Source of the DNA: Saprospiraceae bacterium
GTDB taxonomy: Bacteria > Bacteroidota > Bacteroidia > Chitinophagales > Saprospiraceae
Assembly (NCBI GenBank): GCA_020629965.1
Contig: JAHDCG010000005.1
Span: forward strand, 1-64,000
Direction: 5' to 3'
Length of the DNA: 64,000 bases
A program made the position numbers and the translations under genes. Shown here piece after piece: positions 2,518 to 49,323 of the stretch (its first letter is position 1; every line of letters begins with the position of its first letter). Under the pieces are notes generated by a model. It was given only the letters and a program-made list of their open reading frames with translations. It was not told where the DNA came from and searched no databases.

Positions 2518-2602
2518 CCTTGCTTCGGCAACCGTAGAAAATTCGACTTAGTAAAATGTAATATTATCGTGGTTGAAAATGACTTGAGAATTTACCGACC
2601 GG

Positions 2603-2637
2603 CTAACAACTATCAACCACCAACTAACAACTAACAA
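2603..2637 (+). repeat. pre-start C/A-rich heptamer tract
   Basis: Degenerate 7-bp units CAACTAT, CAACCAC, CAACTAA, CAACTAA run straight into the ATG of arsS. The strand preceding the start is nearly free of G. Confidence 0.7.
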
Positions 2638-3711
2638 ATGGCAATAAAACAAAAAACAAAATCTCTCAGTGCTCGCGGTGCGGACTTGTCCGATTCTTTT
2701 TTCCAACTCAACGTATTGGCGGGAAAAGACGAACGGGCGGCGGCGTTTCCGAATTTTACGGAGAAGGTCAGCAATTTGGGTTTTAAACCCCTGCGCACGA
2801 CCGAGTTAGAGATTTTTCAATTAAATATAGGAAAATTGTGCAACCAAACCTGCGCCCACTGTCACGTGGATGCGGGGCCGGATAAGCGCGTGGAAAATAT
2901 GGACAAGGCGACTTTGCAGCGTTGTCTGGAAATTATCGCTTCCGTGCCGTCCATTCACACCGTGGATATTACGGGCGGCGCGCCGGAAATGAACCCGCAC
3001 TTTCGTTGGTTTGTGCAGGAGTGCCGCGCGTTGGGTAAAAAGGTCATCGACCGTTGTAATCTGACGATTATTCAGGCGAATAAAAAGTACCATGATTTGC
3101 CCGAATGGTTTCGGGATAATCAGGTTTCGGTGGTGTCTTCCCTCCCCTACTTTTCCAAAAGTCGGACGGACGGACAGCGCGGCGACGGGGTTTTTGAAGA
3201 CAGTATCAAGTCCTTGCAACAACTGAACGCGGTGGGCTACGGTAAGCCGGGTACGGGTCTGACTTTGGATTTGGTTTACAATCCGTCGGGTGCGTTTTTG
3301 CCCGCGAGTCAAGAGTCTTTGCAGGCGGAATTTAAGCGTCAGTTGAAGCGCAAATACGACATCGAGTTCAATAATTTGTTTGCGATTACCAATCTGCCGG
3401 TCAGCCGCTTTTTGGATTATCTTTTGGAAACGGGCAACTACGAGGAGTACATGGAAAAACTCGTCACAGCGTTTAATCCGATGACCGTCGAGGGTCTGAT
3501 GTGTCGCAATACGCTGTCGATTTCTTGGGACGGCTACATGTACGACTGCGATTTTAACCAAATGCTCGACCTCAAAGTGGCGAGTCGCGGCGGCAAGCAC
3601 ATCAATGATTTTAACTTGGAAGAATTGAAAGAACGCCCGATTGTACTGAACCAACACTGCTACGGTTGCACGGCGGGCGCGGGTTCGAGTTGCGGGGGTG
3701 AGGTGGCTTAG
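2638..3711 (+). CDS. arsS: arsenosugar biosynthesis radical SAM protein ArsS
   Basis: The 357-aa protein has the radical SAM cluster motif CNQTCAHC (C68, C72, C75), followed by a TGGAPE segment for SAM binding. The C-terminal third is cysteine-rich (LMCRNT, YDCDFNQ, HCYGCTAG, SSCGG), as in the DUF3641 end of ArsS, and probably holds auxiliary ligands. ArsS is linked to building 5'-deoxyadenosyl-type arsenosugars from methylated arsenic. No arsM methyltransferase or ars resistance gene is next to it here, so arsenic must be methylated by a gene elsewhere. It forms a unit with the preceding AhpD-like gene, 156 bp upstream. A bidirectional terminator follows. Confidence 0.93.
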   Translation: MAIKQKTKSLSARGADLSDSFFQLNVLAGKDERAAAFPNFTEKVSNLGFKPLRTTELEIFQLNIGKLCNQTCAHCHVDAGPDKRVENMDKATLQRCLEIIASVPSIHTVDITGGAPEMNPHFRWFVQECRALGKKVIDRCNLTIIQANKKYHDLPEWFRDNQVSVVSSLPYFSKSRTDGQRGDGVFEDSIKSLQQLNAVGYGKPGTGLTLDLVYNPSGAFLPASQESLQAEFKRQLKRKYDIEFNNLFAITNLPVSRFLDYLLETGNYEEYMEKLVTAFNPMTVEGLMCRNTLSISWDGYMYDCDFNQMLDLKVASRGGKHINDFNLEELKERPIVLNQHCYGCTAGAGSSCGGEVA

Positions 3712-10941: not shown

Positions 10942-11795
10942 GCAATATACTTGATGCTATCTTAAATATTATCGAAGTAAATAAATTTACAGTCGATAAT
11001 TTGTACAAAGGTTCTAACAAAATCAATAACGTCGGAGACGCTTTAGAAGAATACGCAAAAGATGCTTTCGCGGGTTCGTTTAACTTGACAACGAAAGCTA
11101 AAAAAAACAAGGCATACAGCAAAACCTTTTCGTATTTAGGTAACAGTAATAATCCGCCGGATTTCATGATTAGAGGCGGTGCTGCTGTAGAAGTCAAAAA
11201 AATTACCTCTCTCAAATCTGAAATAGCACTAAACAGTTCTTACCCGAAAGCTACGATAAGGAGTGATAACCCAATGATTACTCATAGCTGTCGTGACAGT
11301 GAGGAATGGACAGAAAAAGACTTAATTTATTTGATTGGTCGGGTTAAACCAAAGACAAGTAAAATAACGTCCTTATGGTTTGTTTACGGTAGTATTTATG
11401 CGGCAAGCCACGAAACTTATACAAGAATCAAAGATAAAATTACCGAAGGGGTAAGTGAAATTCCCGGTATTGAAATCTCAAAAACTAAAGAATTAGGACG
11501 TATCAATAAGGTTGACCCTTTAGGAATTACCTATTTGCGCGTGAGAGGAATGTGGGGAATTAAAAATCCTGCGGTGGTATTTGATTACATTCATACTACA
11601 AATTCGGACAATGAATTTGAACTAACTGCATTGATTCCTAACGATGTTTATGCAGAATTTGATAAAAAATCAAAAAGACGATTCACAGAAAAAGTTAAAA
11701 CAACATCAATGCTGAAAATAGAAGATGAAAAAGTGCAAAACCCTAATAACCCTGCTATATTAGTTGATTGTAAACTCATAACTTTTTCTTTGTAA
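10938..11795 (+). CDS. type II restriction endonuclease (possibly NgoBV/NlaIV-like)
   Basis: The 285-aa product starts in ATGA, overlapping the methyltransferase stop by 4 bases, which indicates translational coupling. A PD-(D/E)xK nuclease core is visible as PPDFMI ... AVEVKK with D75, E85 and K87. The overall look recalls the NgoBV family, whose partner is also a C5-methyltransferase and which cuts GGNNCC, but this assignment is from memory of the family and the site is unproven. Base composition is AT-rich like the partner gene. A strong hairpin terminator follows at 11837-11872. Confidence 0.8.
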   Translation: MSNILDAILNIIEVNKFTVDNLYKGSNKINNVGDALEEYAKDAFAGSFNLTTKAKKNKAYSKTFSYLGNSNNPPDFMIRGGAAVEVKKITSLKSEIALNSSYPKATIRSDNPMITHSCRDSEEWTEKDLIYLIGRVKPKTSKITSLWFVYGSIYAASHETYTRIKDKITEGVSEIPGIEISKTKELGRINKVDPLGITYLRVRGMWGIKNPAVVFDYIHTTNSDNEFELTALIPNDVYAEFDKKSKRRFTEKVKTTSMLKIEDEKVQNPNNPAILVDCKLITFSL

Positions 11796-11836
11796 TTAAG
11801 CTTCATCAGAAAAAACAACAAGTTTACCCTTCATTA

Positions 11837-11872
11837 GAAAAGCCCGCACCGAAAATTCGGTGCGGGCTTTTC
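11837..11872 (+). terminator. terminator after the R-M pair
   Basis: GAAAAGCCCGCACCGAA pairs with TTCGGTGCGGGCTTTT; a perfect long stem with T-rich ends. Confidence 0.85.
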
Positions 11873-11898
11873 TAATTGACAATCTCCCCAAAAAAACC

Positions 11899-11929
11899 AA
11901 AGGGCACACCGAAAATCGGTGCGCCCTTC
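11899..11929 (-). terminator. terminator of the 1139-aa DUF4331 gene
   Basis: AAGGGCACACCGA / TCGGTGCGCCCTT with an AAA loop and one mismatch. On the minus strand it is followed by a T-run. The stem core resembles that of the terminator 30 bp away, as if one arose from the other. Confidence 0.75.
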
Positions 11930-12019
11930 ATCTTTAATATTCCACTCAAAAAACGGCAGCAAAGCATCCGTTACCCGAGCGAGTTACCAAGACATATTGG
12001 TAAAAAGCCGAAGCCTCTT

Positions 12020-15000
12020 TTATTGCTTAATCAAACGTTGTGCAGGAATAGCCGCACCTTCCGCTTGCAGGCGTACAAAGTACATACCTTGTGCCAAGTC
12101 AGCAGCGTTGATAGTCGCGCGGTTTCTGCCGAGCGTCAATTCAACTTCCTGATTTTGTACCTGACGACCTACTTGGTCGAGTAACAAAATCTGTGCTGTA
12201 CCCGCAACCGGAGCGTCGATAATGACAGTCGCCGTACCGCCTTTCACGGTAGTCGGGTAAACAGTCATTGCGTACTCGGTCGGAGCAGTCAAGGTTGCGT
12301 TATCGACATCGTTGCGTCCGTCGGCCGGGCGGTTACCCGCTGCCAAAGTTTTCGCACCTTCATCATCTTCCTGCGGTGTCATACCGTTACCGTTACCCGG
12401 AGTCGAGTCAGGGTCATCGGCAGGTGAAAAGTCAACTTCCGCGTAGAAAGTAGTCGAGCTGTTGGTCAAAGCAAACAGGGTGTAGTTAAACGTCGCTGTT
12501 TGTCCCGGAGCCAAGCTGTTGATTGTCCATCTTTCTGCTTGCAGGTTGTACACACCGTTGGTGGTAGAGGCTGCCGTAAAGCTGAAGCCCGAAGGTATCG
12601 GCAAAGAAACTTCTACATCTTCTACGCTGTTCGGACCTGCATTCGTTACCTGAATAACAAATACCGTGTTCGAGAACGGAGAGAAAGTAGAACCCTGCGT
12701 CTGTACCGTCAAAGACAAATCGGCAGTACCGTTGTCTTGCGGGCCGTTGCCGCCGTCGCCTTGGTCTGTACCTACGAAGTATATCGCAGATGCACCGGCA
12801 AATTCCTGATTGTAATTAGGCGCAATGTTACCTCCGTTAGAAGGCAAAGAGAAACCTAAAATACGACCGCCGCCGTTCGCGCGTTCCGCCACATAAATTT
12901 GGCTGTTGTCCACGTTCACCGCTACATCGACCGGGTTACCCAAGAAAGTGTTGCTGCCCGCAATGCGGACTTGCTCACTCATCGAGATGTTACCGTCGGC
13001 TGCTGCCTGCATATAATCGTCAATAATGACAATCGCACCGTCGTCCGCTACCGCACCGCTGCCTACGTCAGTCAAGACCATCAGGTCGGTGTCTGCATCG
13101 TAAGTGATACCGTGTGTGCGTACAATACCTGCAACCGGGATGATTGCATCTGCGGTAATGGCACCGTTCGGGTTAGCGAAGAAGTTTTCGTAAACCGCGA
13201 GGTTGCTGCTGTTATCTTCGATAGCGTACAAAGTTTCGTCTTGTACGTGGATACCCCACAAGTTAATGTCCGTTGTGTAAGAAGCCGACAAAGTAATCGC
13301 ACCCGCCGCTACGTCATAGACGAAAAGCGCGTTGGTGTTACCGTTACTGTCCGCTGCATCTTGTGCGACAATCAATTTGCTGCCCGTCAGGCTGATTTCG
13401 CGACCGTTGGTAAAGTCGGAAGTCGAAGTTGCCGATACCGTAGGTACGTTACCGTTCTCCAAGTCAGTGTTGACATTGTTGTAAGCAACTACTACGTTAT
13501 TGGTACGATCCAATTGGTATAATACATCGTTATCTTCGTCGTAAACGATACCGTCAGAGTCCGTGCCGTTAGCAGGGAAAGTGGTAAAGTCCGCCATACC
13601 GTTATCCAATGCGTCGAATACACCGACGACACCGCCCGTGTTGGTCGAAACAAAGAACTGACCGATAACCTGCGGGTCTTCGTTACCGTCACCGTCATCG
13701 GCGATAGTACCGCTACACTCGCCCGTACCGCGACGCGGCTGTGACAAGAAAGGGAAATCGTTGGTAAAGCCCTGGTCGTCTTCTTCTACACCGGTAGTGT
13801 AAGAAAGTACGCTCAATAAGTCAGGTGTTACCGGACTTGCGTTCGGGTCGTTCGGGTCGAAATCATCGTACCACAGACCGACTGCCGCTAAGACAATACC
13901 CGAAACCGCTTGCAATTCAATGCGCGTTACGTCATCTTCGAGGCGGCGACCGTTAGGGAAACCGTCCATATTCGGAATGAATTCCAAATCTGCATTCGTG
14001 TTAAAAGGTGCGGTAGTCAAACCTAAAACGGCTGCTTGTACCAAACCTAAAGAAGAGAAGTTATCGTCGTCACGCGGAGTAATCGGAGTCGCCATATTCA
14101 AACGCAACATGTCACCGCCGTTGGGCAGGAAGTTGTTGATGAAAGGCTTACCGACTGCCAAAGGATTACCCATTTTGCCCGTAGCCAACTGGTACGGAGG
14201 CAAGTTAGGCACACCTGTGTGGAAAATAGGCAATAAATCCACCGAACGCGGCTGACCCGGACCGGGCAATAACAAACCGCCGAAAGCAGCTTCCGCCAGT
14301 GCCGTACCGTCTAATGCCGCCGTTCCTTTCAAGGGGAAAAGACCGTCTGCACCGTTGGTGAAATCAAATGCACCCAAAGAGTTTTGCTGAATAGTCAAAT
14401 TGTTCGAGAATGCGGGAACCGCGTCGCCGAAAGCACCGCCGTCCATGTACAATGCCAATTCAGGATTGTTGAAGTACTGGTAGAAAGAAGACTCACCGTT
14501 TGCATCGTAAGGTGAAGTTTGGTTCCAACGGTCTTTCTCACCGATCGGAATAATTGCTTCGTTGGTCAAAGGCATACCCAAACGCGATACCTGTACGAAG
14601 TCACCGCTTGTAGAAACGGTACCGTCGGTATTTAAAGTACGCATCGAGGGGCGGCTTGCGCTTGCCCATACACCGATGACGTAGTCGCCGTCGAGAATGT
14701 TAGCCGGAGTAGATGCCGCGCCGTCTTTCAACAACATAGCAATCGGCACCTGAATAGCAATAGAGTGTACATTGAAGCACTCCAAACCGTCGCGCGGCTC
14801 TCCGTCTTGACGAGGTGCGTTACCGAGGTCGAAAATACCGCCCAAGTCCACAAAGAACGGGTCGTCAACGGGACCTGCGAATACGCGCTCACCGTCCGGT
14901 GATTCTACGATAGCAGAGTTCCACAATTGGTCGTAAGTAGTACCCAAACCGACCATAGACTCGATAGAGCGGGGGCCGATATTGTAAGGAGGTACGGTAC

Positions 15001-40436: not shown

Positions 40437-41222
40437 GTGAAAAGAGCTATTATCGTAGAAGACGAAATTCGCAGCCTTAACAATCTGCGTAATTTACTCG
40501 GCAAAAACTGCCCCGACATCGAAATCGTCGGTATGGCGGGCACCATCGCCGAGGCAGAAGACCTGTTTGACGACCCGGAATTGAAGCCCGACGTGGCTTT
40601 TTTGGACATCAGTCTGCCCGACGGTCTGATTTTTAAATTGCTGGAGCAGTTGCGCCCGCTCGATTTCGATGTGATTTTTGTCACTGCTTTTGACGAATAT
40701 ACCAAGCAGGCCTGCAAATTCAGCAGCATCGACTATATTCTAAAGCCCATCGACCCGGAAGAACTGCGCGATGCCGTCAGTCGGGTGCGCGCCAAAGGCA
40801 AGGAGGACATCAACGAGCGCATGGATGTTTTCCAAAGCATGTATCGCCACCCGAATATTTTTGAAAAAATGAGCATTTCCGCGCTCGACGGCATTTATTT
40901 TGTGAGTATCAGAGAGATTTTGCGCTTCGAGGCGGAAGACAATTATACGCACATCTTTTTGCAGGACGGCAGCAAAATTACCGCTTCCAAGACCATCAAA
41001 TCCTACGAAGATATGCTGGCGGATATGAACTTTTATCGGGTACACAAACGCCACGTGATTAACATGAATTACATGAAAAAATTTGTGAAAGGCGACGGCG
41101 GTTATCTGGTCATGGACGACAACGAACGCATCGAAGTATCGCGCCGCCGCCGCACGGCATTCATGGAAGAACTGCGCCGACTCGAAGCGAGAAGCGGTCA
41201 GGTTTCGCGCGTAAACGGGTGA
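40437..41222 (+). CDS. LytTR family response regulator
   Basis: The 261-aa protein from GTG 40437 (MKRAIIVEDEIRSLNNLRNL) has a receiver domain with acidic pair E8/D9, phosphoacceptor D57 (VAFLDISLPDG), the conserved VTAF threonine and KP lysine (LKPIDP). It ends in a LytTR DNA-binding domain (about 155-255: FEAEDNYTHIFL, YRVHKRHVINMNYM). LytTR regulators often control surface, secretion or peptide-signalling genes. No histidine kinase is adjacent. The next transcription unit encodes the GG-type peptide at 41582. Confidence 0.92.
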   Translation: MKRAIIVEDEIRSLNNLRNLLGKNCPDIEIVGMAGTIAEAEDLFDDPELKPDVAFLDISLPDGLIFKLLEQLRPLDFDVIFVTAFDEYTKQACKFSSIDYILKPIDPEELRDAVSRVRAKGKEDINERMDVFQSMYRHPNIFEKMSISALDGIYFVSIREILRFEAEDNYTHIFLQDGSKITASKTIKSYEDMLADMNFYRVHKRHVINMNYMKKFVKGDGGYLVMDDNERIEVSRRRRTAFMEELRRLEARSGQVSRVNG

Positions 41223-41429
41223 ATCGGTCAAGAAAACGGTAGGACAAACGACATTTTTTAAGAAATGTCACATATTTTTTAAGTCACTATATGTTTTTCA
41301 AAAGGGAGAAACATCTGCTTGCTTTTGGTTTAAAAAATTGATTTACAGAGCATTATGTAAAAATAAAATTTATTTTATATGAATTTTTAATCATTCAAAT
41401 AAAATAAATATGTTGTCGTCGGGGTATAA

Positions 41430-41444: not shown

Positions 41445-41475
41445 TGGCATAAACGAAATATTATGCCTAATTTTG
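41444..41475 (+). promoter_or_regulatory. promoter of the GG-type peptide gene
   Basis: TTG at 41444-41446, 21 bp spacer, perfect -7 box TAATTTTG at 41468-41475. Leader of about 100 nt before the ATG. The region 41223-41430 before it is AT-rich without a gene. Confidence 0.6.
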
Positions 41476-41581
41476 ACCCGTAGAAAACGCACAGCTAACC
41501 GCCTTTTTTACTACACAATGTCATAAACATCAATTTTTAAACGAGAAACATTTCTGTTTTTTGTCACAAAAGCACGCCGCT

Positions 41582-41737
41582 ATGGGAAAGACAAAAAAAG
41601 GTATCGACAAGATACTGAAAAACGACAAAGCCGAACGTCTGGAAAACGACGAAATGAAGGACATCCTCGGTGGTCGCGGTAAGAAGAAAAAATTTCGCCT
41701 GATACGTTTCAGTTTCCGCGATATTATGCCGTCGTAG
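41582..41737 (+). CDS. candidate double-glycine leader peptide precursor
   Basis: A 51-aa ORF too short for usual gene callers. The N-terminal part is helical and acidic near the end (DKAERLENDEMKDILGG, residues 15-31), closely following the leader pattern L-x-x-x-E-M-x-x-I/L-x-G-G that bacterial C39 peptidase transporters and Bacteroidota natural-product systems recognise. After GG comes a 20-residue tail starting RGKKKKFRLI, with eight basic residues and one acidic. It has its own promoter with a palindrome upstream and a strong terminator downstream (41846-41885), so it is a complete small transcription unit. Role (bacteriocin, signal or modified peptide) is inference. No transporter or modifying enzyme is adjacent. 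Confidence 0.65.
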   Translation: MGKTKKGIDKILKNDKAERLENDEMKDILGGRGKKKKFRLIRFSFRDIMPS

Positions 41738-41845
41738 TTTTCTTTTCCGATAAAAATATATACGATGTCGTTTGTCTGCGTACAAATTGCATCGCCCAAA
41801 ATATCTTGAGAAAATAACACATAATTCATTCTTAGATATTTTATG

Positions 41846-41886
41846 AAAGGAATAAATTTCGCCTCCGTGCGGGTTTATTCCTTTTC
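41846..41886 (+). terminator. terminator of the peptide transcription unit
   Basis: AAAGGAATAAA pairs with TTTATTCCTTT across a 16-base loop, followed by a T-rich run. Confidence 0.8.
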
Positions 41887-42014
41887 TTTTTTTGCGCAAA
41901 CTTTAGTCGGGTGCCAACAAAATCCGACCTTTTTGCCGTTTTACTCCGTAAGCAAACAACTTGCCGCCCGTTCGGTCGTTAGACACACAACCTTCGCCTA
42001 ATTTTTTTCCGACT

Positions 42015-42986
42015 ATGAAAAAGAAATTACATCTCCTTTTTGCCCTGCTGTTGACGGGCTTTGCGCTGCAAGCCCAACAAACGCCGCAGTACAGCCTGTA
42101 TATGCTCAATCAATTTGCGCAAAATCCCGCTTACGCCGGTCTGGACAATACTTTGGTTGCCAACGGTGTCTATCGCACGCAGTGGGTCGGTCTGAACGGT
42201 GCGCCGGTGACGCAAATCGTGAATGCGCACTTACCTTTTAATGTCATCAACAGCGGCTTCGGGGTGCAGTTTGAAAATGACGAAGCGGGTGCTTCGCAGC
42301 GGACTTCGGTGAGTTTGGCGTACAGTTATCATCTGCAAATCAATCGCGAAAGCCGCCTGAGTATCGGCGTCAGCGGCGGCATGATGCAACAAACTCTGGA
42401 CGGTGAAAGACTGCGTACCCCCGAAGGCGAGTACGACGCGGAGATAAATTTTATCAATCATAATGACGATTTACTGCCGACGGGCAGCCTGTCCGAAACG
42501 GTGCCGACCTTTGCGGCGGGCATATTTTTTCAAGGCAAAAAGCTGAATGCGGGCGTCGGAGTGTTAAATTTGCAGGAATCGGATGTTAATTTTGATAACT
42601 TGACCGTAAAACTGCAAAGAAGTTTTTACCTTTCCGCTGCTTATGATTTGGACGTGTCACGCAACTTGGTTTTAACGCCTTCATTGCAGGTAAAATCTGA
42701 TTTGGTGCAGACGCAGGCGGAGGTTTCAAGCATCATACGCATGAAAGATAATTTATTCCTCGGCGCATCTTATCGCGGATTTACGCCGGAAAGCCAAGAC
42801 GCGATTGTCGCCCTCGGCGGTTTTCGCTTGAACCAAAACTGGACGGTCGCCTACGCTTACGACATCACGCTGTCGGCTTTAAACACCGTCAGCAACGGTT
42901 CGCACGAGGTGATGCTCAATTATAATTTCGGAAAACCTATCGGGCAGGGCGTACCGCCGCCGATAATATATAACCCGAGGTTTTAG
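42015..42986 (+). CDS. porP: PorP/SprF family protein, gld-cluster member
   Basis: The start is set at 42015, where MKKKLHLLFALLLTGFALQA forms a signal peptide. The 323-aa protein shows the family opening QTPQYSLYMLNQFAQNPAYA and strand-rich barrel sequence to the end. In Porphyromonas, porP precedes porK-L-M-N and its product belongs to the T9SS outer-membrane assembly. The order porP-gldK-L-M-N here is the same, which supports orthology over the SprF-like gene at 30304. A GT-rich tract follows the stop. Confidence 0.9.
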   Translation: MKKKLHLLFALLLTGFALQAQQTPQYSLYMLNQFAQNPAYAGLDNTLVANGVYRTQWVGLNGAPVTQIVNAHLPFNVINSGFGVQFENDEAGASQRTSVSLAYSYHLQINRESRLSIGVSGGMMQQTLDGERLRTPEGEYDAEINFINHNDDLLPTGSLSETVPTFAAGIFFQGKKLNAGVGVLNLQESDVNFDNLTVKLQRSFYLSAAYDLDVSRNLVLTPSLQVKSDLVQTQAEVSSIIRMKDNLFLGASYRGFTPESQDAIVALGGFRLNQNWTVAYAYDITLSALNTVSNGSHEVMLNYNFGKPIGQGVPPPIIYNPRF

Positions 42987-43412
42987 TTGACGGTTGCCGG
43001 TTGTCAGTTGCCCGGCGGCTTTTAGCTCAATATTCGGGCATCATTAAAAAGGGTATTACTTTTGCACTACAAACTATCTCAAAGTTTGTCTGCAAAAATC
43101 TTTATACATTACTACTACTAACTTTTTACGGGTTTAAAATGCTAATGATAAAATAACGGACAAAGAAATGACGTTGTGATTTCGGAAAAAATGAACAAAA
43201 GATATGTACTCCGCATAGAATTTGTTCGGAAGTCTGAAATTATTGGGTATGTTTGCCGTCTGTTTGGCATAAACCGGTAAAATATTTTTGAATCTATTCT
43301 CTAAACGCTTACTTTTGTCGGCGTTCTGCGGGTGTGCTCTCTCAAAGTCATCGGCAGAGGTCATTCATAACTTATGTTTTTAACAACTGAAGCGAAAACT
43401 CGGGTGAAAAAA
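42987..43412 (+). other. porP-gldK spacer
   Basis: No gene. It contains a GTTGCCG-type heptamer tract behind the stop (42985-43012), a first -7-like box TACTTTTG at 43057-43064, and the better promoter at 43285-43317. gldK thus appears to have its own transcription start(s). Confidence 0.55.
43285..43317 (+). promoter_or_regulatory. gldK promoter
   Basis: TTTTTG ending at 43290, exactly 19 bp spacer, TACTTTTG at 43310-43317: a near-ideal Bacteroidota promoter. The leader would be about 90 nt. Confidence 0.75.
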
Positions 43413-44663
43413 ATGAAGAAACTACTAAACTTAGCTTTTGCGTTGCTTACGTTAGCAACCGTACTCTCTTCCTGCGGCGGTGCAGGACAATCCGGACAAC
43501 TCGTCGGCGTTGAAAATCGTCCTTCCTGGAAAGGTATCAACCCCTACGGCATGGTTTACATTCCGTCCGGTACTTTACACATCGGAAATTCCGACCAAGA
43601 TATTACAAATACTTACGTGCAGCGTCCGAAATCCATCTCTATCGCGGGTTTCTTTATGGATGACACCGAAGTTACCAATAACGAGTACCGTCAGTTTGTG
43701 TACTGGGTGCGTGACTCCATCGCTCACTCTTACCTCGACCACTACATCGAGTCCGAAACCGGCGAAGAATACATCGATTGGGAATATGAAATCGATTGGG
43801 CAGACGAAACCTTAGAAGACATGTACTACCAAGGCGACGACCGTTTTGCCGGCAAAAAAGAATTAGACGTCTCCAAAATGGAGTTCGAATACGAATGGTT
43901 CGATTGGAAAGGTGCAGCGCACGACATGGGTAAAAGCCCGCGTACTTCCTTTATCAATCGCAAAACCATCAATATCTACCCCGATACTTTGGTATGGATT
44001 CGCGATTATGCGTACAGCTACAACGAGCCTTACACGCGTAATTACTTTTGGCACCCTGCCTTTGACGACTACCCGGTGGTCGGTGTAGATTGGCACACGG
44101 CAACGGCTTTCTCTTACTGGAGAACCAAACTGTGGAACACTTACCAATCGGTGCGCGACGATGGAGTCAACTCGGAAGATTTCCGCCTCCCGACCGAGCA
44201 CGAGTGGGAATACGCTTCACGCGGCGGTCACGATATGGCACCATACCCCTGGGGCGGTTACTACCTGCGCAACTCGAAAGGTTGCCTTTTGGCTAACTTC
44301 AAACCCGGTCGCGGTAACTACCCCGAAGACGGCGGTCTTTACACCGTAAAAGCTGACGCTTACTTCCCGAACGACTACGGTCTGTACAACATGGCGGGCA
44401 ACGTCGCGGAATGGACAAGCACGGCTTACGTTGAAAATGCTTACTCTTTCATCCACGATTTGAACCCGGATATTCGCTACGATGCACAAGAAGAAGACCC
44501 GGAAGCGTATAAGCGTAAAGCTATTCGCGGCGGTTCCTGGAAAGATGTAGGTTTCTTTTTGCAGACGGGTACCCGTCACTACGACTTCCAAGACACGGCA
44601 AAATCTTACATCGGTTTCCGTTGTGCTTTGACTTTCTTGGGTCGTTCTATCAACGATTTTTAA
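43413..44663 (+). CDS. gldK: gliding motility/T9SS lipoprotein GldK
   Basis: From the ATG at 43413 the product (416 aa) starts with a lipoprotein signal MKKLLNLAFALLTLATVLSS followed by the lipidated cysteine. A formylglycine-generating-enzyme-like (SUMF1) fold follows: GMVYIPSGTLHIGNSD, FMDDTEVTNNEYRQFV, FRLPTEHEWEYASRGG, AGNVAEWTSTAY, AIRGGSWKD and a terminal GFRCAL. GldK forms rings with GldN under the outer membrane in the T9SS. An ATG 13 codons upstream is rejected because it would displace the signal. Confidence 0.96.
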   Translation: MKKLLNLAFALLTLATVLSSCGGAGQSGQLVGVENRPSWKGINPYGMVYIPSGTLHIGNSDQDITNTYVQRPKSISIAGFFMDDTEVTNNEYRQFVYWVRDSIAHSYLDHYIESETGEEYIDWEYEIDWADETLEDMYYQGDDRFAGKKELDVSKMEFEYEWFDWKGAAHDMGKSPRTSFINRKTINIYPDTLVWIRDYAYSYNEPYTRNYFWHPAFDDYPVVGVDWHTATAFSYWRTKLWNTYQSVRDDGVNSEDFRLPTEHEWEYASRGGHDMAPYPWGGYYLRNSKGCLLANFKPGRGNYPEDGGLYTVKADAYFPNDYGLYNMAGNVAEWTSTAYVENAYSFIHDLNPDIRYDAQEEDPEAYKRKAIRGGSWKDVGFFLQTGTRHYDFQDTAKSYIGFRCALTFLGRSINDF

Positions 44664-44683
44664 GCTGAGTTTTTAGTAGAAAA

Positions 44684-44720
44684 AAGAGCGTATGAAGTTT
44701 TCATACGCTCTTTTTTTTTG
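44684..44720 (+). terminator. gldK terminator
   Basis: AGAGCGTATGAA / TTCATACGCTCT with a short loop, followed by nine T. It separates gldK from gldL. Confidence 0.88.
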
Positions 44721-44745
44721 TTGCCGGTTGTCGGTTGCCCGGCGC

Positions 44746-44781
44746 GCACCGTAGCATTGACTTTAGTCGATTGGCTGTTTA
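44746..44781. repeat. REP-like element, copy 3
   Basis: ATTGACTTTAGTCGAT in the GCACCGTAGC context, joined directly to a GTTGCCG-type heptamer tract (44720-44742). Confidence 0.7.
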
Positions 44782-44811
44782 TTTGCTTTCTGCTCTGCTT
44801 TCAGTTCGGAT

Positions 44812-44930
44812 TAGTAACGGCGACTTTCAAGTCGCCTAAAAAAAACGAAGTTTTTGTAAAAACTAATCATCATAAGAATACAGCAATTTCTTCCTTTTTC
44901 CCACGACCGGCTGAAGCCGGCGGTTACTAT
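44812..44930. repeat. diverged relative of the 59-bp tandem unit
   Basis: It begins AGTAACGGCGAC with the hairpin GGCGACTTTCAAGTCGCC and ends with CGACCGGCTGAAGCCGG then CGGTTACTA, the same outer GTAAC / GTTAC ends and two inner hairpins as at 6452, but split by about 70 bases of unrelated sequence. Confidence 0.6.
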
Positions 44931-44956
44931 GCAAAAACATTTTTTCTTCCCTCCCC

Positions 44957-44988
44957 TTGCGCATTCCGACCAAAATTATATATATTTG
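44957..44988 (+). promoter_or_regulatory. gldL-gldM promoter
   Basis: TTG at 44957-44959, 21 bp spacer, TATATTTG at 44981-44988. It predicts an unusually long leader of nearly 490 nt before gldL. Confidence 0.6.
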
Positions 44989-45142
44989 CGACCGCAGAAA
45001 ATAAATCAATACATTTTCTTGTTTATATACCGCTCAATCTCGAATTTATAAATGATTTGAGAAACTCTACACAACGTTACACACACCGGTACTTCCTCCT
45101 TTTTATACAATATTTTACTCTGTTTAAAATCTAAATGACATC

Positions 45143-45387
45143 TCGATTTTCTTTAGCAGCATTACCGTACAGACGGTAGATGCCTTTAGTGAGTTTTGGT
45201 AAAATCGAAGAAAAAACCGGGTTGAAGTCTTGATTCGAGGTGAATTGTACATTTTTGTAACCTTTAATACAAGCAAGAAAAAATAAATAAAAACAACGCA
45301 CAAAAAGTGTATCTTTTTAAAAACCGTGCGTTTAAGATACGTGTCTGCGAAAGCAGGGAGTCATTCAAGAATTTGCGGACACTTTTT
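45143..45387 (+). promoter_or_regulatory. structured 5' leader of gldL
   Basis: Three successive stem-loops: TCGATTTT / AAAATCGA (45143-45208) enclosing TACCGT / ACGGTA; ACGCAC / GTGCGT (45296-45331) enclosing AAAAAG / CTTTTT; and GTGTC / GACAC (about 45341-45387). They lie between the predicted promoter and the gldL ATG. No ORF is seen in 44664-45482. Confidence 0.5.
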
Positions 45388-45482
45388 CACAATGAATTTT
45401 CTAACAAACATGAAGCATAGATTTTCGGGACTACTACAACTTTCCTAAAACCTTGTTTCAAACCACTAAAATTTATCATCAA

Positions 45483-46085
45483 ATGAGTTTTTTAAAGTCG
45501 AAAGGATTTAAGTACGTAAAAAACCTCCTCATCGGTGTCGGTGCCGCTATCGTTTTGATCGGTGCCCTCTTTAAGTTGGAGTCTTTGCCCGGCGCATCAC
45601 TCATGCTGACCGTCGGTCTGTTAATCGAGGCATTCATCTTCTTGTTCTTGGGTCTCATCGGTCCGGAAAAAGATTACTACTGGGAAAAATTGTACCCCGG
45701 TTTGGACGATTACTCTTCTCGCATTCAGCCGTTGGCGGCGGGTCCCGTAGTTGACCAACAGCCCGGCTTAAACGGTCAGGTCGTCGAGCAGCAGCTGGGC
45801 GGTATGTTGTCTGAGTTACAAGGCATGAGCAAGAGCCTCGGTTCTTTGAAAGCATTGCAGGAAGCGGACTTCAGCGGCACTTCGGAGCAAATGAAGACCA
45901 TGAGTAACTTCTACTCGAAAATCAACGAAGCTATGGCTGACTTGGGCGACTCTGCTGAAGATGCAAAACGTTACAAAGACCAATTGGCGGCATTGAACAC
46001 TAACCTCAACTCTTTGAATAACGTGTACGGCGGTATGTTGACGGCAATTGCCAACATCAGCGCACCTCCGGCGAAAGTAAAGTAA
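45483..46085 (+). CDS. gldL: gliding motility/T9SS inner-membrane motor protein GldL
   Basis: The 200-aa protein (start MSFLKSKGFKYVKNLLIGVG at 45483) has two membrane helices (about 15-33 and 40-58). The second carries the buried glutamate E49 (GLLIEAFIFLFLGLI) and the first ends near K31, matching charged residues important for proton flow in GldL. The rest is a cytoplasmic helical tail with a long coiled-coil region (about 110-190). GldL forms a ring around GldM and converts proton motive force into rotation for secretion and gliding. Confidence 0.96.
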   Translation: MSFLKSKGFKYVKNLLIGVGAAIVLIGALFKLESLPGASLMLTVGLLIEAFIFLFLGLIGPEKDYYWEKLYPGLDDYSSRIQPLAAGPVVDQQPGLNGQVVEQQLGGMLSELQGMSKSLGSLKALQEADFSGTSEQMKTMSNFYSKINEAMADLGDSAEDAKRYKDQLAALNTNLNSLNNVYGGMLTAIANISAPPAKVK

Positions 46086-46149
46086 TGAAAAGCGTGACGG
46101 CGGTCGATTAAAAAATCGATTTTTCGTTAAGTGACTTCATTGTCTTTAG

Positions 46150-46303
46150 GAAATTGCCCCGAGGCAATTTCGGAATGAATAAAATTTAATGACTTTAGAG
46201 AACACTGTTGAATTTACGGAGCGGCTTAATTACCCGCTTCGTAATTCAACTTTTTCCGAAAAAGTCAAAAAGTAAAAGAAATTCAGAGCAACCTCTGAAT
46301 TTC
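46150..46303 (+). promoter_or_regulatory. four consecutive hairpins between gldL and gldM
   Basis: Hairpins are GAAATTGCC / GGCAATTTC (46150-46171), a long imperfect stem with ends TTGAAT / ATTCAA (46208-46249), ACTTTTT-CCG-AAAAAGT (46249-46265) and GAAATTCAGAG-CAAC-CTCTGAATTTC (46278-46303, 11 perfect pairs). They take up most of the 240-bp spacer. No T-run follows the last stem, so they look less like terminators than like mRNA-stabilising or processing structures. Confidence 0.7.
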
Positions 46304-46325
46304 AAATATAAAAACATAATCAAGC

Positions 46326-47981
46326 ATGTCTATACCAAAGGAACCGCGGCAGTTGATGATTAACCTGATGTACCTCGTACTGACGGCGCTGCTCGCATTG
46401 AACGTTTCCGCTGAGGTTATGAATGCCTTTGTCACCATCGACACCAGTTTGAAAGAAACTGCGGCGACGACCGACTCGGCATTGGATGACCAACAAAAAG
46501 CATTATCCAAACTTTTAGCAGAAGACTCGAAAAAAGATTTCCGTGCATTAGAACCGGGAATTAAAGATATTCGTAAAATCGTCGCTGACTTCAACACTTA
46601 CATCAATGACATCAAAGGAAAATTGATTGACGGTGCCGGTGACAAGAACGGCGTAGAAGACGACGGTGATTACAAAATCGACAAAAAATCGGGTCTGCGT
46701 ATGATGAAAGGTAAGAAAAACAAAGATGTAACGACTCGCCTCTTAGCGGAAGACCCGTTGGGTGACGAGTTGGAGGCACGTATCAAGCAAACAAAAGAAG
46801 ACTTGATTGCTTCTTACACTAAGACTTTGAACAATCCTGAACTGGCTGCGGCTGCGGGTTACCGTACCGAAGCGGGTAAAATCGACCAAGCGGCAATCGA
46901 CGCGGATATCGCGGGTTTTGCCAATAATATCTCACTCGGTATCGACGAAGATTGGGCATCTAAAACCGATAAAAAGTCTTGGAAAGAATATCGTTTTAAG
47001 CAAATGCCCGTTTTGCCGGCGACTACCCTTTTGACTACTTACCAAGCGGATGCGAAAAACGCGGAAGCTCTGGCAGTAGGTAAATTGGCAGAAAAAGCAG
47101 GCGGTAAAGAAATTGTATTCGACAAATTCTTCCCGGTAATCAACGCGAAAAAAGCGTACATTATCAAAGGCGAAAAATTTGAAGCAGACATCTCTCTGGG
47201 TGCTTACTCTTCGGACATCAAGCCGGAAAACATTAAATTAACCGTAAACGGAACGCCCGTGCGTATGGGCGAAGACGGTGTAGCGTCGTATTCTTCGACC
47301 GCATCTTCTACGGGTTCTAAAAAACTGAAACTCGCCGCACAGGTAACTAACCCGCTGACGGGTGAGGTTTCTAACGAGATTTCGGAATTCGAATACGAAG
47401 TAGGTGTGCGTTCGGCAACGGTTTCGGCCGATAAGATGAACGTATTCTACATCGGTGTCGATAACCCCGTATCGGTCGTAGTGGCGGGTGCCAACTCTAA
47501 CGAAGTTAAAGTCAACGGCAGCGGCGCGGGTCTCCGCGTAAAAGGCGGCGGCGGTAAATACACCGCAACCGTGAGCAGCCCCGGCGAAGCGACAATCACC
47601 GTTTCCGGTGGTGGTTTGCCTTCTACTCCCTTTACTTTCCGTGCCAAGCGTATTCCCGATCCGGTAGCGCGTTTGAGTAAGTCGAGCGGCGGTTCGATGG
47701 GTAACGGTGAGTTTAAAGCACAAGGCGGTGTGGGTGCCTTCTTGGATAACTTCGACTTCGACGCCAACTGTAAAATTCAGGGTTTCAACCTCGTTTACGT
47801 AGCAAAGCGTCAAGACCCCGTCGAGTCCATCAACAACGGCCCGCGTTACAATGACAAATCAAAACGATTGGTCAACTCGGCTAAGCCGGGCGATATTTAC
47901 TACTTCGACAACGTAAAAGCGCGCTGTCCGGGTGATACCGCCGGCCGTCCGATTAACTCGATGGTCTTTAAGATTAAATAG
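46326..47981 (+). CDS. gldM: gliding motility/T9SS motor protein GldM
   Basis: The 551-aa protein has a short cytoplasmic N-terminus (MSIPKEPRQLMINLMYLVLT), one membrane helix (about 11-31) and a long periplasmic part made of beta domains (for example VVVAGANSNEVKVNGSGAGL and the C-terminal GFNLVYVAKRQDPVES). In the known structure a GldM dimer sits inside a GldL pentamer and spans the periplasm to contact the GldK-GldN ring. Start ATG at 46326. Confidence 0.96.
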   Translation: MSIPKEPRQLMINLMYLVLTALLALNVSAEVMNAFVTIDTSLKETAATTDSALDDQQKALSKLLAEDSKKDFRALEPGIKDIRKIVADFNTYINDIKGKLIDGAGDKNGVEDDGDYKIDKKSGLRMMKGKKNKDVTTRLLAEDPLGDELEARIKQTKEDLIASYTKTLNNPELAAAAGYRTEAGKIDQAAIDADIAGFANNISLGIDEDWASKTDKKSWKEYRFKQMPVLPATTLLTTYQADAKNAEALAVGKLAEKAGGKEIVFDKFFPVINAKKAYIIKGEKFEADISLGAYSSDIKPENIKLTVNGTPVRMGEDGVASYSSTASSTGSKKLKLAAQVTNPLTGEVSNEISEFEYEVGVRSATVSADKMNVFYIGVDNPVSVVVAGANSNEVKVNGSGAGLRVKGGGGKYTATVSSPGEATITVSGGGLPSTPFTFRAKRIPDPVARLSKSSGGSMGNGEFKAQGGVGAFLDNFDFDANCKIQGFNLVYVAKRQDPVESINNGPRYNDKSKRLVNSAKPGDIYYFDNVKARCPGDTAGRPINSMVFKIK

Positions 47982-47989
47982 TTTGGGTG

Positions 47990-48212
47990 AGATTTTAGAT
48001 ATTAGACGTTAGATTTTAGACTCTTTTCGTCTCTTGTTCTCGTCTCTTCAAATTATGAAAAAAGCCGCTTTTTCCTTTCCTAAGGAGAAAGCGGCTTTTT
48101 AATTTTAGACGTAAAATACCTAATCAAACAGAAAATGAAAAGGTTGCTCTATTCCAAAATGTAGTAAATGACTCCTGTCTCCCCGTCAACCGACAACCGT
48201 CAACCGACAACT
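47990..48212 (+). repeat. inverted tracts around the gldM terminator
   Basis: TTAGACG / TTAGATT units (47998-48022) follow the gldM stop. CGTCAAC / CGACAAC units lie at 48183-48212 towards gldN. No ORF in 47982-48456. Confidence 0.55.
48058..48102 (+). terminator. gldM terminator
   Basis: AAAAAGCCGCTTT / AAAGCGGCTTTTT stem-loop. A second terminator-like hairpin (GCCC / GGGC followed by six T) is at 48304-48326. Confidence 0.8.
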
Positions 48213-48329
48213 ACTTGTCACATCCATTTTTTTTTCGTTAAAAAACCGGCGAAAACACCGATAAACCCCTAACAAATATTATTTTTGACGCAGATATACT
48301 AATGCCCCGCAACGGGCGTTTTTTATGTG

Positions 48330-48337
48330 TATGTTTG
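48330..48337 (+). promoter_or_regulatory. gldN promoter -7 box
   Basis: TATGTTTG, directly behind two terminator-like hairpins. No clear -33 TTG. Suggests separate transcription of gldN. Confidence 0.45.
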
Positions 48338-48456
48338 CGGGAAGATTTTAGCATTGTTCTTGCTTACTTTTCTACTGAAACTATAACTATCAAGCGACTC
48401 GGTCTTCTCAACCGAATTGCATAAACTACGCTGCAGCGACAAACTTTTTAAGTATC

Positions 48457-49323
48457 ATGAAGATAGCTTTGAAACTACTGAGTTTAACACTACTCGTCCT
48501 TCTTTCTTTCTCCGACACGGCTTTTGCCCAGTTGCCCGAAGGTGTTATCACCGAAAGCACTGACCTCGATGCCGACCGCCCCTTGGACGACATTACGGAA
48601 AAAACCAACGTCATTGAAAAACGCATTCTTCCCTACGACCACATTCGTGAGGCGGATATTTTCTGGGAAAAACGCATCTGGCGCGTAATTGACATCCGCG
48701 AAAAGATGAATTTGCCGTTTGCGTACCCGGAGCGTCCTTTGTTTACCATCCTGATGGATGCGGCAATGGAAAACGAAATTAAAGTGTACTCTACCGAAGA
48801 TGATAAATTTTCTAACCGCATCGAGCCGGATGAAGTCGCCTCCATGGGTGCCCGAGTGGATACGGTTATTACCTTCGACCCGGAGACTTACGAAGAGCAA
48901 ATTCAAATCGTGCGTAACGAGTTGAACCCCGAAGACGTGAAGCGTTTCCGTCTGAAAGAAGTGTGGTTTTTTGACGAAGAATCTTCTACCATGCAGGTGC
49001 GTATCTTAGGTATCGCGCCGCTGATTGACGTGAAAGACGACAACGGTAACTTCCGTTACGAGCAGCCGATGTTTTGGGTGTACTACCCGGATGCCCGCAG
49101 CGTCTTAGCGCGAGAACTGGTCTTTAACGCCGGTAACGATGCCAGTCCCAATTCGTGGGAGGATTTATTTGAAGCCAGATTTTTCAGCAGTTACATTTAC
49201 AAAGAGAGTAACGTCTATGACAGGAAGCTCGCCGATTATCTGTCGGGCGTAGATGTTTTGCTCGAAGCGGATAATATTAAGAATGAAATCTTTAACTTCG
49301 AGCATGACCTTTGGTCGTACTAA
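48457..49323 (+). CDS. gldN: gliding motility/T9SS protein GldN
   Basis: The 288-aa protein has a signal peptide (about 1-23, ending AFAQ) and a conserved body starting ILPYDHIREADIFWEKRIWR, with VWFFDEESSTMQVRILGIAP and FWVYYPDARSVLARE, typical of GldN/PorN. It joins GldK in the periplasmic ring of the T9SS. The gene closes the cluster and is followed by a strong terminator. Confidence 0.96.
   Translation: MKIALKLLSLTLLVLLSFSDTAFAQLPEGVITESTDLDADRPLDDITEKTNVIEKRILPYDHIREADIFWEKRIWRVIDIREKMNLPFAYPERPLFTILMDAAMENEIKVYSTEDDKFSNRIEPDEVASMGARVDTVITFDPETYEEQIQIVRNELNPEDVKRFRLKEVWFFDEESSTMQVRILGIAPLIDVKDDNGNFRYEQPMFWVYYPDARSVLARELVFNAGNDASPNSWEDLFEARFFSSYIYKESNVYDRKLADYLSGVDVLLEADNIKNEIFNFEHDLWSY

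Follow-up and report, generated by a model that had tools for sequence, protein, structure and literature searches.

The window, by which we mean the whole stretch of 64,000 nucleotides analysed, carries a short peptide gene downstream of a gene for a LytTR response regulator; a promoter element precedes the peptide gene and a predicted terminator follows it (Table 1). The encoded precursor consists of a leader, MGKTKKGIDKILKNDKAERLENDEMKDILGG, followed by the predicted mature core, RGKKKKFRLIRFSFRDIMPS. A first-pass annotation, made from the sequence alone, had proposed this frame as a 51-codon double-glycine (GG) leader gene with a basic 20-residue tail containing eight Lys or Arg and one Asp, and the same tail was obtained on translation. 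The LytTR gene that it had placed directly upstream was identified as such by Pfam, and in the relatives an orthologue immediately preceded the peptide gene at almost every locus. The start codon of the regulator is uncertain; GTG at 40437 fitted best to the relatives, and starts further upstream are possible.

Table 1. Features of the peptide locus, in window coordinates.
Feature	Position	Strand	Basis
LytTR response regulator	40437..41222	+	Pfam LytTR 65 bits, Response_reg 51 bits
Palindrome	41446..41467	.	Present in the window, not conserved in the congener
Promoter -7 element TAATTTTG (TAnnTTTG type)	41468..41475	+	Kept in the congener G001
Gene for the peptide precursor (51 codons plus stop, starting at ATG)	41582..41737	+	Translation, homologues, purifying selection
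Leader of 31 codons with Gly-Gly at its end; hydrophobic residues I-4, M-7, L-12, A-15	41582..41674	+	Position counts over 92 precursors; C39 groove positions (PMC6363468)
Core of the mature peptide (predicted), RGKKKKFRLIRFSFRDIMPS, with a divergent version of the GCGGIxPQ C-terminus	41675..41734	+	Family alignment
Intrinsic terminator (predicted), 11-bp stem AAAGGAATAAA/TTTATTCCTTT, then T-rich run	41846..41893	+	Fold

The promoter and the terminator claimed by the first-pass annotation were both recovered. A TAnnTTTG element was found 45-125 bp upstream of the peptide at 25 of 72 loci, against a mean of 5.3 after shuffling, and the peptide therefore seems often to have its own promoter. Downstream of the peptide gene a hairpin with a T-run was seen at 41846-41884, with a folding energy of -16.8 kcal/mol (z -2.2). 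The palindrome that had been reported together with the promoter is indeed present, but it was not kept in the congener G001 and so is not a conserved element. For this reason it probably arose by chance and has no function, and we rejected it as an operator.

Four copies of TGTCA were observed between the regulator and the peptide (window positions 41266, 41434, 41519 and 41562), and several copies are kept in G001 (CTGTCACAG, TGTCACATATTT); they are possible sites of the regulator. When 72 upstream regions were scanned for k-mers and direct repeats, the TAnnTTTG promoter was the only result, and no LytTR operator common to the genera emerged. Upstream of the regulator, a divergent gene for a voltage-gated-ion-channel-like protein was present in several genera (2550-3377 at locus L138, 2674-3501 at L142 and 11587-12423 at L017). 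A 99-aa antisense ORF (41530-41829, minus strand) overlaps the peptide gene; it is unlikely to be a gene, because the sense frame is conserved across many genomes.

Conservation and anatomy of the peptide

The window contained a single ORF with a GG-leader pattern, and one also turned up in 4 of 30 shuffled windows, so the pattern alone is weak evidence. Homologues were therefore decisive. In a single-sequence search, with one congener sampled, the congener peptide was 62% identical and weak matches were obtained in two further genera. A profile built on these four peptides recovered full-length homologues across Saprospiraceae, and together with the loci reached through the kinase described below, Gly-Gly homologues were found in 122 of 298 sampled Saprospiraceae genomes. 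Synonymous change far exceeded non-synonymous change: pooled over 28 close pairs pS was 0.56 and pN 0.052, and dN/dS between the window gene and that of the congener was approx. 0.13. Comparison of the coding sequences thus showed strong purifying selection. The check on conservation proposed by the first-pass annotation accordingly came out in favour of its claim, with frame and Gly-Gly kept in relatives, and from homologues and selection together we accepted the 51-codon ORF as a real gene.

The peptide was present in records named Phaeodactylibacter, Flavilitoribacter and Lewinella as well as in MAGs, and among cultured strains in Phaeodactylibacter xiamenensis KD52, P. luteus KCTC 42180 and Flavilitoribacter nigricans DSM 23189. 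No full-length homologue was found outside Saprospiraceae among 395 genomes sampled from the class. A fragment, RSIQRIIGGRRNKKWNSGCGGINKKF, was observed in a genome of another family (G388, locus L121); it resembles a family member that has been broken or transferred, and contamination of the assembly is possible. Against known families the window peptide matched nothing above cut-off. With fewer than 60 aa, the gene family is poorly covered by Pfam and NCBIfam models, and it can be recognised through its C-terminus and its neighbours.

Over 92 precursors, the leader residues at -4, -7, -12 and -15 were hydrophobic in 95%, 90%, 100% and 88% of cases, respectively, and the remaining leader positions were mostly polar. 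Residues at -4, -7 and -12 are the ones that a C39 protease accommodates in its hydrophobic groove (PMC6363468). The leader thus fits recognition by a C39 peptidase, and the window peptide is by its sequence a C39-type substrate.

The cores of these precursors were mostly 13-25 residues long with a mean net charge of +3.2, that of the window core being +7. They were strongly conserved across many genera, above all at the C-terminus, which typically reads GCGGIxPQ; -PQ formed the very end in 81 of 92, and the Cys, where present, was the seventh residue from the C-terminus in 64 of 65. Such a motif, fixed at the extreme end, suggests that the free C-terminus is recognised. Cys was absent from 27 of the 92 members, including the window peptide, which ends ...FRDIMPS; the congener peptide ends ...FTDIMPL. 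The genus of the window has thus lost the C-terminal Cys and Gln, and its peptides are atypical, divergent members of the family.

The gene neighbourhood and the probable partner kinase

An orthologous response regulator was found upstream of all of the first four peptides (window, congener and two genera), and at nearly all peptide loci the regulator lay on the same strand, separated from the peptide by a gap of approx. 60-660 bp. Directly 3' of the peptide, at 72 of approx. 90 loci, we found a histidine kinase of 620-650 aa composed of TPR repeats, a PF06580 His_kinase domain and a HATPase domain. Hydropathy analysis of four of these kinases detected no membrane segment, and the kinase is predicted to be soluble and cytosolic. 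Across the sampled genomes the usual order is LytTR regulator, peptide and soluble TPR kinase, a conserved three-gene unit.

Peptide and kinase also occurred together across genomes. Of 144 genomes with the kinase, 126 also had the peptide, as against 2 of the other 154; these are raw genome counts that ignore kinship, and the contrast is somewhat inflated, as kinase-positive genomes were searched more closely for the peptide. The two genes are not always adjacent: in the nearly closed genome G148 they were 17 kb apart, and in the window species the orthologous kinase was located on another contig (C55:56672-58555). Kinase homologues with 35-44% identity and no adjoining peptide were detected in four genera and are probably paralogues. 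In the genus of the window, changes affected 10 of the 56 conserved TPR columns, compared with 7 out of 94 columns of the kinase part (p 0.064), which is no more than suggestive of a co-divergence of peptide and TPR.

When the P. xiamenensis kinase was modelled with AlphaFold2, the TPR solenoid (residues approx. 13-390) was predicted with confidence (pLDDT approx. 90); the long signalling helix and kinase core were modelled less confidently. Foldseek matched the modelled TPR to peptide-binding TPRs in the PDB, with LGN/Pins first, then Rap, Rap-pheromone and NprR. The model is consistent with peptide binding; the matches are no proof of it, because TPR folds resemble one another.

The place of the kinase in the window species is taken by genes of type IX secretion (T9SS): sprF/porP, a gene with an FGE-sulfatase domain in the gldK position, gldL, gldM and gldN follow the peptide directly (42015-49323). 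The first-pass annotation had connected the peptide with this T9SS cluster. We rejected the link, as the congener and other relatives hold the sensor kinase in that position and the kinase of the window species is on another contig; judged from gene order, the T9SS neighbourhood is incidental and reflects a local, lineage-specific rearrangement.

The window itself contained no C39 transporter, and the first-pass annotation had expected the exporter to be encoded elsewhere. This proved correct: three C39 genes were found in the rest of the genome, at least one of them a C39-ABC exporter with an HlyD partner. A search for a dedicated C39 orthologue ended in rejection, since the exporters of genomes with a single C39 resembled all three. 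Among genomes encoding a Gly-Gly peptide, 119 of 122 had a C39 peptidase match, compared with 58 of the remaining 176 (raw counts, kinship ignored). Because the C39 leader pattern is kept and Gly-Gly peptides go together with C39, export seems to matter for function in most species.

Peptides lacking Gly-Gly were found in two genera. In four genomes of one of them, g26 (loci L148, L163, L174 and L182), the peptide lay immediately 5' of the kinase, the regulator was not adjacent, and no C39 peptidase was found. The g26 peptides are rich in Ser, Thr and Asn and end in [YF]CGxxTPQ. In the other genus, g102, two genomes carried peptides without Gly-Gly in an otherwise normal triad, with one C39 each. 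That C-terminus and kinase are kept together despite the lost export signal points to the kinase as the partner of the peptide.

Function of the peptide

In the best-supported account, to which we assign a probability of roughly 0.6, the peptide is an exported ligand of a TPR-kinase/LytTR pathway, with export through C39 in most species. A C39 ABC exporter encoded elsewhere would cut after Gly-Gly and release the core from the cell; the TPR superhelix of the kinase would bind its conserved free C-terminus, which reads CGGIxPQ in most species; binding would change the phosphorylation of the LytTR regulator, which would then control target genes. As the kinase is cytosolic, the exported peptide would need to be re-imported, as the mature peptides of RRNPP receptors are. 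A role as a pheromone or self-monitoring signal is the likeliest, and of the options named by the first-pass annotation peptide signalling is thus the one that we favour, given the conserved LytTR link and the co-occurring TPR kinase. The Gly-Gly-less peptides of two genera, the kinase that is not adjacent in the window species and the loss of the C-terminal Cys and Gln there speak against the ligand account. More tentatively, at slightly less than even odds, we propose a family-wide signalling system of the Gram-negative Saprospiraceae: a peptide exported through C39 would carry a conserved C-terminal code, CGGIxPQ with its free carboxyl end, and a soluble histidine kinase with TPR repeats would read it, so that reception in the style of RRNPP systems is joined to a LytTR two-component output.

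Alternatively the peptide could be the output of the pathway instead of its input, a cationic antimicrobial similar to class II bacteriocins that is controlled by kinase and regulator. A bacteriocin had been among the first proposals for this gene and we kept it as a rival, as the core is small and cationic (mean charge and window charge as given above), the GG leader is accompanied by C39 exporters, and the leaders show a weak similarity to bacteriocin models throughout the family. Bacteriocin cores usually diversify, however, whereas here the core and especially its C-terminus are conserved across many genera; an immunity gene is not among the conserved genes of the three-gene unit, and in g26 the peptide has remained beside the kinase with both Gly-Gly and C39 missing. 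We therefore consider this alternative unlikely.

With Gly-Gly-less peptides kept beside the kinase, the peptide may also act inside the cell. The precursor itself might bind the TPR kinase there and C39 export might serve only for its removal, in which case the system would be a gauge of export capacity or growth state rather than of cell density. A kinase without a membrane segment would suit such an arrangement, as would the peptides of g102 and of the C39-less g26 genomes. In almost every species, however, the leader has kept the C39 pattern, and the association of Gly-Gly peptides with C39 argues that export matters in most of them, which makes an exclusively intracellular role improbable in our view.

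Returning to the exported ligand, its closest parallels are the streptococcal ComC-ComDE and BlpC-BlpRH systems and the RRNPP family. ComC-ComDE and BlpC-BlpRH likewise have a peptide with a GG leader, export by a C39 ABC transporter, a LytTR-type regulator and clustered genes for peptide, kinase and regulator. ComD and BlpH are membrane kinases, whereas the kinase of the Saprospiraceae unit carries a TPR sensor and a PF06580 domain and is soluble, and hence the unit is not a ComC-ComD system. Beyond the leader the peptide families are unrelated, and the host here is a Gram-negative member of Bacteroidota.

With the RRNPP systems (Rap, Rgg, NprR, PlcR, PrgX), which were described in Firmicutes, the unit shares a small peptide gene beside a cytosolic TPR protein, and structures of Rap and NprR are among the matches of the modelled TPR domain. 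Receptors of that family measure 250-500 aa, and their propeptides leave through SEC or PptAB (PMC10075063); the Saprospiraceae unit, in contrast, has a kinase of 620-650 aa and a peptide with a Gly-Gly leader of C39 type, and is not RRNPP as defined there. The unit is RRNPP-like in its receptor fold and ComC-like in its leader, and is a member of neither group.

Peptide signalling and quorum sensing have been well worked out in Gram-positive bacteria, and to our knowledge peptide quorum sensing is hardly known in Bacteroidota. We found no description of the regulator-peptide-TPR kinase unit in the open-licence literature, which is not proof of novelty. For Saprospiraceae, a family of aquatic bacteria, a defined peptide with a candidate receptor and regulator is now available in more than 40% of the sampled genomes, and since the unit is present in cultured strains the question is directly testable.

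The last option, the precursor of a natural product made by post-translational modification, such as the radical-SAM type of TIGR04149, was likewise raised by the first-pass annotation and is very improbable: although leader style and phylum are shared, TIGR04149 was matched at E<=0.1 by 20 of 53 members and the Cys has a fixed distance from the C-terminus, the HMM check on the window peptide gave 12 bits against a curated cut-off of 25 bits, the Cys is missing in the 27 members mentioned above, and the conserved three genes include no modification enzyme, radical-SAM or other. The accessible text of a publication on Bacteroidales RiPP clusters (PMC10352776) describes GG-leader precursors and PCAT exporters, in some cases with nearby TPR or HK/RR genes, and suggests signalling; the clusters described there carry modification enzymes, unlike the Saprospiraceae unit, and in that portion of the source a conserved regulator-peptide-TPR kinase unit was not described. 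Other GG-leader peptides were noticed as well: a second, unrelated one in the genome of the window (locus L021, G000:C6:15334-15393, MKNTSNNNNAKTIKNLEAAKIKKEQLKSIKGGFIIEDFVME) and, in other families of the class, Cys-rich ones with weak leader matches (L122, L123, L127 and L129).
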